From Antedon bifida (Eukaryota; Echinodermata; Crinoidea; Comatulida; Antedonidae): 64,000 nt of DNA. Numbering within the stretch: the stretch's first letter is position 1; each line of letters opens with the position of its first letter. Where the stretch lies: positions 15,977,820-16,041,819 of the forward strand of contig OY727096.1 of NCBI GenBank assembly GCA_963402885.1, given 5' to 3'. Under the pieces are notes generated by a model. The model was not told where the DNA came from. It worked only from the letters and a program-made list of their open reading frames with translations, and did no database searches. A program made the position numbers and the translations under genes. Positions 43,164 to 61,300 of the stretch are shown one piece after another.

Positions 43164-46100
43164 CTACAAAAATGGATTTCCTGATGATGGGTGTTCAATG
43201 TAGTCTGGTCCAAAACATATAGCCTATAAAAGAAAAAGCAAACTAATAATGTTTGAATAGTTAATTTTAGTAATTAAAATATTATTTTAACTAGCCATGA
43301 GTATCTTGAATATTACATGTCAATCATTACTTTACTCATTGCTCATGAAACGGCATTGAACATTGGATTTGGTATTATTCATTCATTCGTCATTCTATAA
43401 ATCATTCACGCATGACGAAGAGTAACTAGTGCCATCACAAAAAGGTCTATCTTAATATTATAGGTTTAGTTAGTAACAAACACAATACGTACGTTGTTAT
43501 CGTCTTTTAGAACTCTCAAATCTGAAACAAGGTCACCAAAAGATGGTCGATCTTTTGGATCAGTCTGCCAACAACTTTCCATAAGAGAAAATCTATTTTT
43601 TTAAATAACATAAAAACATTGTTTGACAAACTTAAAATGACAATGTAACTTGCATCCACAGCTGCTTGGTTGAACTTGGATGGTAAAAGTTAACTGTTCT
43701 AGACACTGTGCTAATACATCAAGGTATCTTGTACATACCAAGATGCCTTTTACAAAGATACCTTTTACAAAGATGCCTTGTATCAAGACATATTGTACCC
43801 GACCTCTTGTACCAAGATACTTTATACCACAAGATACGTTGTACCAAGGGGAAGGATGAATTAAACTCAACAAAGCTTACAGTGCATTGGAACAACATTG
43901 TGGTTTTGCAAGACGGTGGCCATTGGATAGCAATTCAGGCAGATGTTCCTCCTCTATGCCATCATACGGAATATCACCTGAAAAAAAATATATTCGCATT
44001 AAGAAAAGTATAATCATATAGGTATCCGCCCACAACATGGAAATAATCAACTTACGATATTGAAACAAACAAAAACAAGGACTCGAAAACATATTGCACA
44101 CACTGGTTATTGCTTGAAAGAATAACAGTAAAAATAGAAATATGTTTTGAAGTTGATTAAGAATCGTTTTCTTACCTAAAGTTACAATTTCATAGAGGAC
44201 GATTCCAAAAGTCCACACGTCACATTTCTTTGTTGTAATGTGGTAGGCAATTGCTTCCGGTGACATCCATCTTAATGGAAGACTCGTCTCTCCTCCCTAT
44301 TATAATTAAGCACAAGTGTAATATGTCCTACTTCTTTAATAGATTTAGAAACAAGTTATGCTTTAAGATGTAGTTTTGTAAATAAACCAACTTACAAATC
44401 GATAGAGATCGGTGTTATCACTGATATGTTTCAAACCAAGAACTGGAATTTTAACGATATTGTCCCGAAATAGCATCACCAACTGACAACAGAGCATTGG
44501 ACAGACTCTCTGTAATGAAATGATGAATATTAATAGAATGATACAAGATAGAACACATGCTTATTCTCTCTCTGTGACATTTAGACACCGGAAAAGGAAA
44601 TAAGATAAGTATAATATTTGCACCATTGATGGCGATTTTCAATTTCTTTTTAATTCGGAAATATCATTCATATTAATAAACTTATAAACAGTACAATACA
44701 TTTTGGAGTTAATTTTTTGAGTTAATTTATTCAAACAGCAGAATAGGCGTACACGTACTATAATCTATAACGTATGTTTATTACTAAAAGTTTATTATTA
44801 AGTTTCATTAATAAATATGATTATTATTTGCAATATTACCGTACCCCTTGTTCGTGTAGAAACTGCATTGCCACGGCTATCTGTATAGCATAGTTGATCA
44901 ACTCCCTTGCCTTTGGTTTAACAGAATTACATGCATCTCTAAATGAGTGCAAGTAGCTCCTTAAAGTCCCCTTCGGTGACTTTTCAGTGCAGATACCGAT
45001 CATATCTGTATTAGCATTTACACAAGTGTAATGTTATTGTATAAAAAAGTTATATAAATACTTATTGCAATAGTTTTATATATTGTAATATCTGTTTCAT
45101 AAAATCTACTTTCTTTACTCGGTACCGTTGTGCTTCTATCTTTTTTTAAACAGCTTACACGTAGAGGTAGCTTTTCCAAATACTGTATTTTAATTACCCA
45201 TTTGTAGTTATATTAAACATGGAGGTGAAATGAATAAAAATACCTGCGTCTTTAATCTGAGCAATTGGTCGAATAACACCGTAGTGTACTGGTAGTTTGA
45301 ACACTGTGTCTATTTCCCTTTCCATTGCTTGTTTTTCTTCTTCCGTATACGCGCCTACAAATGCAATGGAATTAGAATAAGGCTTAATAATAATTGATCA
45401 AAATAAACTAGAAAACTAGAAACTATATGCCATGATGAAGATGGTGATACAGATAATTATGATTGTGATTTTTGTTTGGTATCATCAACGCATATTACCA
45501 TTACAATTAAATGTAGCTCTGTCTACACTATCAAACTTTATGTGACAAAAAATGTGATCTGCCCATGATCACACTTTTTTGTCAAACTCATTTGATAGTG
45601 ACAGAGCTTTACATACCATGTATAACATGAGCAATGACTGTTTGTCGACGACTTCCTTCATGAGCTATTGTAACCGTGTAAGTGTTGGCAACGTCCTCAA
45701 CTGGATCAATAAAGGTGACATTAGTGTTTTTCAACACTATATTTGGAGACGAATAGGGAAACTCAACGTCATCTATCACCTGATGATATAAGTCATAAAG
45801 TACAGTAAGTAAGTTATAATACCACCAGTAACTTAATGTCTGCGGTACAATATATTTTGTCCAAAAGGAAATGAAATGTAGATGGAAGTGTATATGTTTT
45901 CAACCGTTGGGGCATTCTCTACTTTTCTTTGTCGGAAGCACATGATATACCGTAGACCTTAATTTATTAGTGTTTTTTTAATCCATGTTCAACATGCTTC
46001 ATTGTTATATTGTATGCATGTGAAGCAAACACTGTACAAGATAAGTCAGTGGAATTGTATTTAATGTATGTGTCCATGATTCTAATTGTAAAAAGATACA

Positions 46101-58300: not shown

Positions 58301-61300
58301 TATGAACAACATTGTAGTTAGGCAGTGTTGTTTTTATATCAGCAATGGTGCGATCATCTCTACTATCACCCGTCAGCCATGTCTCCACAACAGCCAGTAT
58401 ATCAAGATGATTATCAATGATAAAATCACAGAGCGCAGTTGATTTGTTCTTGGCCCTAATAGATCTGGCATTCCATGTGGCTAAGTTAATCTTGGCACCC
58501 GAGTGACTGGGCAGGCGATGGCTGATGGTGGTGGGGTAGCATAAGTTGGTAAAGTTGACACCACGACCTGCTTTAGGTAAAGAATGCTGGGTAGAAAGAA
58601 CAGGTATAGGTTTCCGAATAGTAACTCTTTTACCAGCCCTACAGCCACGGTATGATCTGAAAATACCGCATTCTTTCAACACCTGATATGTATAGTATAG
58701 AGGGGGAAATCCATTGTCTACGACAATTTCGAAGTTGTAGTAGCGTACCCCTACTATACACACGCAAGTCAAAGGTAGATACAGGGCTAGGCCCAGTATA
58801 GAGAGATGGATAGACACCAAAGGAATTAATGGGGCTAGGCCTAGGCCAGCATAGCACAGGGCTAGGCCTAATGTTTACATCAGGTTGAGGGGGCCAAAAG
58901 GGCTTACCAACAGTGAACCATTCAGACCAAGTAGGCTGTACTCCACCAGTTTGAAGCCTACAAAAATCACTACTAAAAACACTAAAATGAGAAGCAGAAG
59001 TGAAATATTGAGGAAAATAAGTCATCTTCTGGATTCAATGTTGAAACAATTACATTGAATCAATAAAAATATGGTCAAAAAAGTGGAAATTAATTAAAAT
59101 TTCCAGGAAACAATGTAAAGGCAGCTATAGCACACAGCTCAGCGCCTATCCTAGTCATGCTGAGTTGAATATTACAGCCAGGAACAGCCAATATTTCGAC
59201 TATAATAAATACCTGCGTCCTTAATCTGAGCAATTGGTCGAATAACTCCACGGTGTACTGGTAGTTTGAACACTGTGTCTATTTCCCTTTCCATTGCTTG
59301 TTTTTCTTCTTCCGTATACTCGTCTGCAAGGCAAATGGAAATCAGAAGAATGCTAATAATAATTGATAAAAATATTGAAACTATGCCATGCCATAATGAA
59401 GATGGCAATACAAGATAAATATGATGTTGATTTTTGTTTGATACCATCAACGTCTCATTTAAAATGTCTATTTCTCTGACCATTGCTTTTTTTTTGTATA
59501 AGTACCTCTTTTACAATGTAAATTATTATTACAATTACATGCTAATCAAGTGTTTAAACAAATCATTGGCACAACATTTTGTGACTCTCATTTGATTTGA
59601 TTTGGGAAAGGTACGTCCATTATCAGTAACAATATTATTTACATACCGTAAATAATATGAGCTATTACGCTTTGTGGATGATTTCCTTCCTGAGATATGG
59701 TAGCATTGTAAAACATTGTGTTAGTTAATTTATCATCGACAGTGACATCTTTTATCTTAACGGTAACTGGAGATGAATAGTGCTCTTCAGATTCAGGATC
59801 AGGTAGGTACTTCGGCTAATGATATTATGAGTAATAAATAATACTATTATTTGTCTGGGCTGGACAGTGCAATTAAAACGTTTTATTATTACAATTTAAC
59901 CTTATAAGCAATTTGTGGATTGTACATTAAGTTTGGGTCAAGTCGTTATAATTATCGTTTACAAAAAATAAGAAAATTATACCTACCGTTTGTGTTATCG
60001 AATGCTACATAAAGAAAAATAGGAAAATTAATTATAATAGTATAACCATTTTGACAAACTACACTTGGAAACAAGATAATTTAAAGAAGTTTACCCCGTC
60101 GTCATTTAGTTGTATAATAGAAGCAACGACAATGTTTACAATTTGTTGGATATATTTAAATGATATACCAAACAACTGTAGGCCTACAAACGTTATGTTT
60201 TAATTCCACAAGTTACGGGAAATAAATTTAAACCTAATAAATTATGTTCATGGTATTTCATAATTATGATCGGTCGAAGCAAATGTAACTACCATTGGGA
60301 AAGCGTCTGCATGGAACAACCGATTAATCCGCCTCGATCTCGAACTCTATAAGAAGAAACATAGAAATCTGAAAGACATTTCGATAAATAAAAGGGAATA
60401 ATAAGACACTTACACACCTGGTTATTTCATTTAAGCATACAGATGACGATAGAAGAATTATCAAAACAATTTCCAAAGTTATTGATAATAATATATGAGA
60501 TAATGGAGATATACTGGAAATAGATTTGACCTTTAAATTGTGTTCATGGTATTTTATATGATCGCTCGAAGAAACAAAATGTAACTACCACTATTCCTGA
60601 CTCCTCCCGGTTTGTATAGCTCAAACTATTTCTCCTCCTCAATCTTGACCTCTATAAAAAGAAAAGATAGATAGTAAAGATAGTAATCTGAAAGATATTT
60701 CGATAAAGAATACTCAAAACAAAGTAATAAGAAACTATACGGCACATACCCGTATACGAATATAAATGACGATGATCAGCAGGTAAACACAACACGCCAC
60801 TGCACCCACAATTACCAACTGTATTATAACTGTAAACATAATAATAAATCAGATACCATGGTTATGGATGGTAGTAAAGTTTGGTACAAGTGGTATAGAC
60901 CTCGTGCTAGATAGAAACAATACATTCACATACACTGGTGATTTAATTACATTCAAACGGTAAAGATGAGGAAATGTTTGTATGTTTCTACCAATCATAG
61001 TGATATACAATTCAATTCCATTGTCCCCTGGTGATGTTACTAACAAAACAATTTAAGGTGCAAGGCCCGCCTAGACAGTATTCACATGTGCCATCATCTG
61101 CCTACCTACAACTTACAGTAGTCTATCTATGTTGATGGTCAATAAATATACTATTATACTTCTTTGTAAAATTACGTTGGTATCCGTATCGCTAATTAAT
61201 ACTGTATCATGTTCATCCTTCTCTTAGAATGTTGTCTTTGTATATTTCGTGTGAAAAGAAACTTACCATTGTCTGGTTCTGGTGATGTTACTGGAAAAAA

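Follow-up and report, generated by a model that had tools for sequence, protein, structure and literature searches.

Some single-pass receptors are already known whose tyrosine-kinase domain is inactive or of doubtful activity, HER3/ErbB3 and ROR2 among them, and HER3 is described as acting by heterodimerisation and allosteric activation (PMC4718504, in the excerpts considered). Among echinoderms, KSR3 of sea urchins, a KSR-related protein, has been reported to activate ERK signalling (PMC10322840, likewise in excerpt). Here we describe a small family of receptor-like genes from the crinoid Antedon bifida, found from a 64-kb stretch of contig C9 (C9:15977820-16041819 of a 315.6-Mb, 27-contig genome; hereafter the window, whose numbering is extended along C9 for coordinates beyond it). 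The COX1 frame of this genome, on the mitochondrial contig C27, makes sense under NCBI code 9, with four AAA codons at Asn sites (by eye) and four AGR codons translated as Ser, in keeping with an echinoderm. HER3 binds ATP and still has its beta3 Lys, catalytic-loop Asn and DFG Asp, and ROR2 keeps its catalytic residues (PMC4718504, same excerpts), whereas all of these residues are gone from the crinoid receptors.

Six kinase-like domains were compared, those of genes A, B, C and D on contig C9 and two further ones, F and G, at a locus on contig C15, with residue roles assigned from general kinase knowledge. Genes A and B lie on the minus strand and have a tyrosine-kinase C-lobe, as an initial annotation of the window had stated, and their kinase-like domains match PF07714 (PK_Tyr_Ser-Thr) with 172.4 bits (E 1.5e-50) and 169 bits (E 1.5e-49), respectively. 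The same annotation had seen VAIK, HRD and DFG replaced alike in both genes, and this replacement proved to be wider than claimed, reaching all six domains. Gene A has TVIAH at beta3, VCPMLCCQL for HRDLAARN and KIPVLG for KIxDFG, and gene B has SVIAH, VCPMLCCNL and KIPVLV. Overall, the VAIK Lys is His in A, B, C, D and F and Cys in G, the VAIK Ala is Ile or Val (6/6), HRD is CPM and the catalytic-loop Asn is Leu (6/6 each), and the D and F of DFG are always replaced (by V/I and L/I), the G being retained in five of the six; no Gly-loop was seen in exon 8 of gene A in the six-domain alignment. The alphaC Glu, SPE, DVW and RP.F are retained throughout. VCPML.C.L.M is common to all the domains, and the rewritten loop has two invariant cysteines (C148 and C153 of domain A) that HRDLAARN lacks. 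A degenerate DNA pattern for V-CPM-L/F-x-C occurs at six sites in the 315.6 Mb, exactly the six domains, and a reversed control at none.

By sequence, the six domains are tyrosine pseudokinases. No phosphate transfer is expected of domains that lack beta3 Lys, HRD Asp, loop Asn, DFG Asp and glycine loop alike; judged from these residues, transfer is almost certainly impossible, and the holding of ATP probably so. An unconventional active enzyme, with the CPM/cysteine loop serving some other chemistry as in other pseudokinase folds, would be in keeping with the two invariant new cysteines and the retained alphaC Glu, yet inspection by eye shows no recognisable nucleotide- or metal-binding residue, and Ile or Val at the VAIK Ala would, on what is known of kinase structure, crowd the adenine pocket in all six; we regard such an enzyme as very improbable. 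A frameshift origin of the CPM block was rejected, as the other two frames of gene A exon 11 contain stop codons and show no resemblance to HRDLAARN, and an assembly error is an unlikely source given six copies on two contigs. An alternative exon with intact HRD and DFG, which the initial annotation had raised as a competing possibility, was not found by tblastn with two FGFR catalytic exons in the window and its extension to 113.8 kb or in C15:1480001-1510000, and an HRD/DFG motif scan of 43.0-113.8 kb and the same C15 stretch returned only the known CPM exons and chance matches (frames and alternative exons were assessed in one genome).

Judged from database matches, introns and a tree, the pseudokinase domain is FGFR-derived. 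In the PDB, the highest single-domain scores belong to FGFR3, FGFR2 and FGFR1, at 139.8 bits and below for domain A alone and, with FGFR3 at the top, at 165.5 bits and below for a four-sequence profile (A, B, F and G; best 60 matches in each case); both times the first rank goes to an EGFR chain of 678 residues that is matched twice and scores less for a single domain (98.9 and 119.0). HRDLAARN and DFG are intact in three FGFR-like genes of the same genome (L053, L054 and L055), and the boundaries and phases of gene A exon 11 match their HRD/DFG exon. All four introns compared, by eye, are equal in place and phase in gene A and the FGFR-like genes: after beta3 (L054 only), two residues before HRD, after the activation loop and before the last kinase exon. 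A further intron of gene A, between exons 12 and 13, is absent from L053-L055. In a tree of 15 rows and 110 columns, the six domains form one clade (100/100) grouped with the FGFR-like rows (97/96), with a stem of 2.27 changes per column and branches of 0 to 0.41 within the clade. The long stem and short branches fit a burst of change followed by constraint. The exact sister of the clade is not fixed, because EGFR, on a long branch, falls inside the same group and 7 of the 12 inner branches are drawn open.

The nine other kinase regions retrieved as relatives (L053-L061) all have HRD and DFG. Candidate active relatives, which the initial annotation had proposed to seek nearby, are represented in the genome by FGFR-like genes with both motifs; no exon with intact HRD and DFG was found in the stretches scanned around the receptors. 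Gene L048 of the same genome has HGD for HRD, no DFG and, by eye, Ig-like exons; we take it to be a PTK7/CCK4-like receptor pseudokinase, and its kinase row (L004_TK, at the same place) groups away from the pseudokinase family in the tree. The FGFR family thus provides the closest kinase domains and the shared introns, but the receptors described here are without HRD, DFG and the VAIK Lys, and their ectodomain is built of Sushi/CCP modules (with WSC as well at the C15 locus), the ectodomain of gene A showing Sushi only and no Ig-type domain in a Pfam scan. The initial annotation, which knew of no standard receptor family with two N-terminal CCPs and this loop, is corrected in that the kinase domain is no orphan in origin, being of FGFR descent. 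No CCP-bearing FGFR-derived pseudokinase was met in the open-access literature searched (PMC8662651, PMC4718504 and PMC3703292 included), which was available in part and gives weak evidence of absence. A survey of the genome for another gene joining Sushi and tyrosine-kinase modules gave no close and rightly ordered pair except at the C15 locus; this was a weak survey, matched by eye, yielding lower bounds (150 scored of 399 Sushi candidates and 131 scored of 779 kinase candidates) and of a sensitivity that left gene A's own CCPs below its Sushi list.

Taken whole, the pseudokinase domain is under purifying selection, and its maintenance, proposed from genes A and B, holds at this level. The ratio of non-synonymous to synonymous change (dN/dS; NG86, with intervals from 300 codon resamples per pair) ranges from 0.21 (A-C) to 0.70 (D-B) over the 15 non-independent pairs of the six domains, the upper 95% bound lies below 1 in 13 of them, and a separate bootstrap of eight of these pairs gave 8/8 below 1. 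Of the gap-free columns, those invariant across the six domains number 22/37 in exon 9, 22/47 in exon 10, 16/36 in exon 11, 20/40 in exon 12, 8/32 in exon 13 and 9/29 in exon 14; exon 11, which holds the rewritten loop, is conserved, though no more than exons 9, 10 and 12. Exon 11 by itself (44396-44509 in gene A), which the initial annotation had singled out for this measure, gives a divided answer and is under-powered, because five of the seven defined and bootstrapped pairs include a dN/dS of 1; A and C are identical there and their ratio is undefined.

Decaying pseudogenes of an FGFR-like receptor would account for the loss of every catalytic motif, for the presence of an element resembling a long interspersed nuclear element (LINE) in an intron of gene B, and for the fairly high dN/dS of pairs with B (A-B 0.63, C-B 0.69 and D-B 0.70, the upper bound rounding to 1.00 in the latter two). 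Against such decay stand the upper bounds below 1 in 13 of the 15 pairs, the identical replacement retained in six domains at two loci, and frames that are open with canonical splice sites (no independent evidence in C and D, whose models were built requiring AG/GT borders); no frame-disrupting change occurs in the models of A, B, C and D or of the F-G kinase exons. Decay, which the initial annotation had named as an alternative, is already disfavoured and appears exceedingly improbable, least firmly so for B. From their sequences these look like working genes for maintained pseudokinases, with B as the weakest case. The rewritten block predates the duplications, as first proposed, because it is common to a second locus on another contig, at a whole-domain dS of 0.59-0.75 (NG86) between the two loci.

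Gene A (48820-43164) comprises 15 exons with 14/14 GT-AG introns, consistent phases and an open 564-aa frame, in the order signal peptide, two Sushi/CCP modules, one transmembrane segment and tyrosine-kinase-like domain (Pfam and by eye; two PF00084 stretches and one of PF07714; Table 1). Signal peptides and transmembrane segments were judged by eye from spliced models here and below, and the Pfam cut-offs were 20.7 bits for PF00084 and 23.1 bits for PF07714 in a single exon. Gene B, modelled with 16 exons from stalk to stop, is open over all of them. Its signal-peptide exon (64134-64069), recognised by homology, lies outside both the window and the model; the stretch from there to the transmembrane exon yielded no CCP exon, and the ectodomain of gene B seems almost absent. 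Four in-frame mini-exons (30, 24, 30 and 24 nt) occupy the place of gene A's CCP modules. Two N-terminal CCPs, initially assigned to both genes, are hence present in A, with none found in B, and the span first given for the pair (43164-59815) covers all of gene A and only the kinase-like part of gene B. Within the stalk of gene B, a mini-exon pair (VITSSPDPDN, VTSPEPDN) recurs about 880 bp apart.

Table 1. Exons of genes A and B and the intronic element of gene B, in window coordinates
Feature	Coordinates	Strand	Basis
Gene A exon 1, start codon and 22-residue signal peptide	48754-48820	-	Spliced model with GT donor; signal peptide by eye
Gene A exon 2, CCP/Sushi module 1	48114-48341	-	PF00084 E 6.7e-05, 23.7 bits
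Gene A exon 3, CCP/Sushi module 2	47489-47683	-	PF00084 E 1.3e-06, 29.1 bits
Gene A exon 4, stalk mini-exon	47138-47167	-	Spliced model
Gene A exon 5, transmembrane segment	46618-46751	-	Spliced model; 20-residue hydrophobic stretch by eye
Gene A exons 6 (46265-46324) and 7 (46114-46167), Pro-rich juxtamembrane	46114-46324	-	Spliced model
Gene A exon 8, N-lobe beta1-beta3, TVIAHVIHG	45617-45779	-	Six-domain alignment; intron placed and phased as in FGFR-like L054
Gene A exon 9, alphaC-beta4, alphaC Glu retained (AMEREIDTV)	45244-45354	-	22/37 columns invariant, six domains
Gene A exon 10, hinge to alphaE	44845-45005	-	PF07714 E 3.6e-05, 23.6 bits
Gene A exon 11, rewritten catalytic exon, 38 residues	44396-44509	-	16/36 gap-free columns invariant, six domains
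Gene A exons 12 (44176-44296) and 13 (43881-43977), C-lobe RWMSPE, DVWTFG	43881-44296	-	PF07714 E 2.1e-17
Gene A exon 14	43493-43592	-	PF07714 22.2 bits, slightly below the 23.1 single-exon cut-off
Gene A exon 15, 19-residue C-terminal tail and stop	43164-43223	-	Spliced model; B, C and D have similar tail exons
Gene B stalk, four mini-exons (62524-62553, 62146-62169, 61649-61678, 61267-61290)	61267-62553	-	GT-AG flanks, phase
Gene B transmembrane exon	60750-60829	-	Spliced model; hydrophobic by eye
Gene B juxtamembrane exons (60589-60651, 60293-60346, 59987-60004)	59987-60651	-	GT-AG flanks and open frame only; least certain of the model
Gene B exon 8-equivalent, N-lobe SVIAHIIY	59647-59815	-	Spliced model, six-domain alignment
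Gene B exon 9-equivalent (alphaC)	59213-59323	-	Spliced model; LINE-like insertion before next coding exon
Gene B exon 10-equivalent	55177-55337	-	Spliced model
Gene B rewritten catalytic exon, VVCPMLCCNLIMVFHDNVVKIPVLVLKHISGSTIQL	54608-54715	-	Spliced model, six-domain alignment
Gene B C-lobe and tail exons (54212-54332, 53950-54046, 52861-52966, 52395-52448)	52395-54332	-	Spliced model; stretch 54201-54350, PF07714 E 1.2e-13
LINE-like element in gene B intron (between 55337 and 59213), outside receptor coding	55660-58874	-	Pfam; reverse transcriptase frame 55660-57117 (RVT_1 E 4.9e-32), endonuclease frame 57027-58874 (Exo_endo_phos E 4.6e-14)

The receptor array runs on one strand past the window, to about 94.4 kb. 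Gene C (75857 to about 68979) and gene D (88246 to about 78960) are both A-type; the frame of C ends in ...NPFLGF and then a stop, and in D exon 4 was not found and the frame is preserved. The tail exons common to A, B, C and D carry GPDY, which we conjecture may offer phosphorylation sites. Gene E (94394-91858; C9 loci L010, L011 and L042) consists of signal peptide, two CCPs, stalk and transmembrane segment followed by a stop, with no kinase exon found; it is a kinase-less candidate partner or decoy within the same array. The CCP exons of C, D and E are homologous to those of A (tblastn). Beside the array, an oxidoreductase-like gene is represented by repeated minus-strand open reading frames that closely resemble one another, at 15826-18240, 30360-31172 and 36347-39620, with Pyr_redox_3 in three of the four frames scanned.

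The second locus (L044-L045, C15:1487298-1496986) has exons for WSC (E 5e-14), a Sushi pair and a third Sushi, then a transmembrane-like segment, Pro/Gln/Ala-rich sequence and the kinase-like domains F and G. Fourteen exons of F and G splice in phase into one open 570-aa frame, with PF07714 at 1.1e-101 over two domains, and the 563-bp intron between F and G contains no AATAAA or ATTAAA. No signal peptide was found at this locus, where a transmembrane-like exon is present, and the splicing of the ectodomain exons to F is only partly modelled. The simplest reading is one gene with two tandem pseudokinase domains, and F and G, each of which begins and ends in phase 0, might possibly serve as alternative cassettes. 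Among receptor tyrosine kinases, two pseudokinase domains in tandem would be unusual, to our knowledge.

The extracellular and intracellular halves of the receptors seem to have had different histories. Between A and D, dS is 0.078 in the kinase-like region versus 0.158 in CCP1 and 0.732 in CCP2, and at the DNA level the two genes are 84-91% identical in the matching blocks of their kinase part, 79% in the stalk exon, 78% in CCP2 and 87% in a block of CCP1 and the 5' end. Because of these kinase-region values compared with those of CCP2, the intracellular halves of A and D look younger than CCP2, perhaps through conversion or partial duplication. Such a disparity, together with a tandem array of modular variants, would suit immune-type recognition, in which diversifying CCPs would recognise microbes or fragments of complement and the pseudokinase would pass the signal on through partners. 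There is however no excess of amino-acid change: CCP dN/dS is below 1 in 11/11 defined ratios of 12 comparisons among A, C, D and E (point estimates without intervals; CCP1 0.91 and CCP2 0.20 for A-D, and A-C CCP1 undefined with a dS of 0), so that the CCPs give no sign of diversifying selection, and the copies amount to a handful only. An immune role therefore has a slight chance in our estimation.

A decoy or sink, whose CCPs bind ligand without signalling and whose dead domain is a leftover anchor, would find its best example in gene E, with its CCP-CCP-transmembrane order, a stop soon after and no kinase exons found. A leftover should drift, yet the kinase-like domain as a whole is under purifying selection, and gene B keeps the pseudokinase with no CCPs found for it. 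We consider a decoy unlikely, with a somewhat better chance than immune recognition; both roles had been put forward for these receptors in the initial annotation and are unsupported so far, given the CCP ratios.

On balance we favour a non-catalytic co-receptor that works with active FGFR-type kinases as their allosteric partner or scaffold. The ATP-binding and catalytic residues of an FGFR-type kinase were replaced before the present paralogues split, and purifying selection has held the whole domain since. In this model the CCP modules would bind an extracellular ligand or partner as the sensing part, and the pseudokinase would dock on an active FGFR-type kinase as an allosteric partner, and/or be phosphorylated by it and recruit adaptors; the conserved alphaC-beta4, alphaE, rewritten loop and first part of the C-lobe might form the partner surface. 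Signalling would thus probably proceed by partner binding rather than phosphorylation. Sensing and docking halves also occur apart, because gene E is CCP-transmembrane with no kinase found and gene B a pseudokinase almost without ectodomain. The co-receptor or scaffold is favoured because HER3, with its heterodimerisation and allosteric activation, offers a model. KSR3 is not a receptor. It does supply a functional precedent, that of a kinase relative acting through partners (PMC10322840, in the excerpts considered).

Several observations weigh against the co-receptor model. The N-lobe encoded by exon 8 is poorly conserved (4/48 invariant gap-free columns), which makes an intact N-lobe fold uncertain. 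Two of the 15 whole-domain pairs, both involving B, barely reach significance (dN was at least equal to dS in 7 and 9 of 300 resamples for C-B and D-B), and in exon 11 alone (36-39 codons) two of the seven defined pairs, A-F and F-G, exclude a dN/dS of 1. Partnering with FGFR-type kinases in particular is proposed by analogy. Kinase-dead FGFR-like proteins can sequester partners, and a dominant-negative receptor, one that dimerises with active FGFR-type receptors and blocks them, would draw on sequence evidence identical to that of the co-receptor; yet this evidence is the same for activation and for inhibition, and we give the blocking role a chance marginally below that of immune recognition. 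It is also conceivable, at much the same slight chance as an immune role, that an FGFR-type fold has become a nucleotide-independent module, with the VCPML.C.L.M loop and its cysteines as a docking or redox/metal switch, exchangeable CCP/WSC ectodomains and a tandem form at C15.

Most receptor pseudokinases known to us are old single genes in which part of the ATP site is retained. The crinoid family comprises several genes, and its catalytic and nucleotide-binding motifs have all given way to one new sequence that was then conserved. With intact-looking FGFR-like relatives in the same genome, the family may be well suited to studying what selection preserves in a kinase fold in the absence of catalysis.

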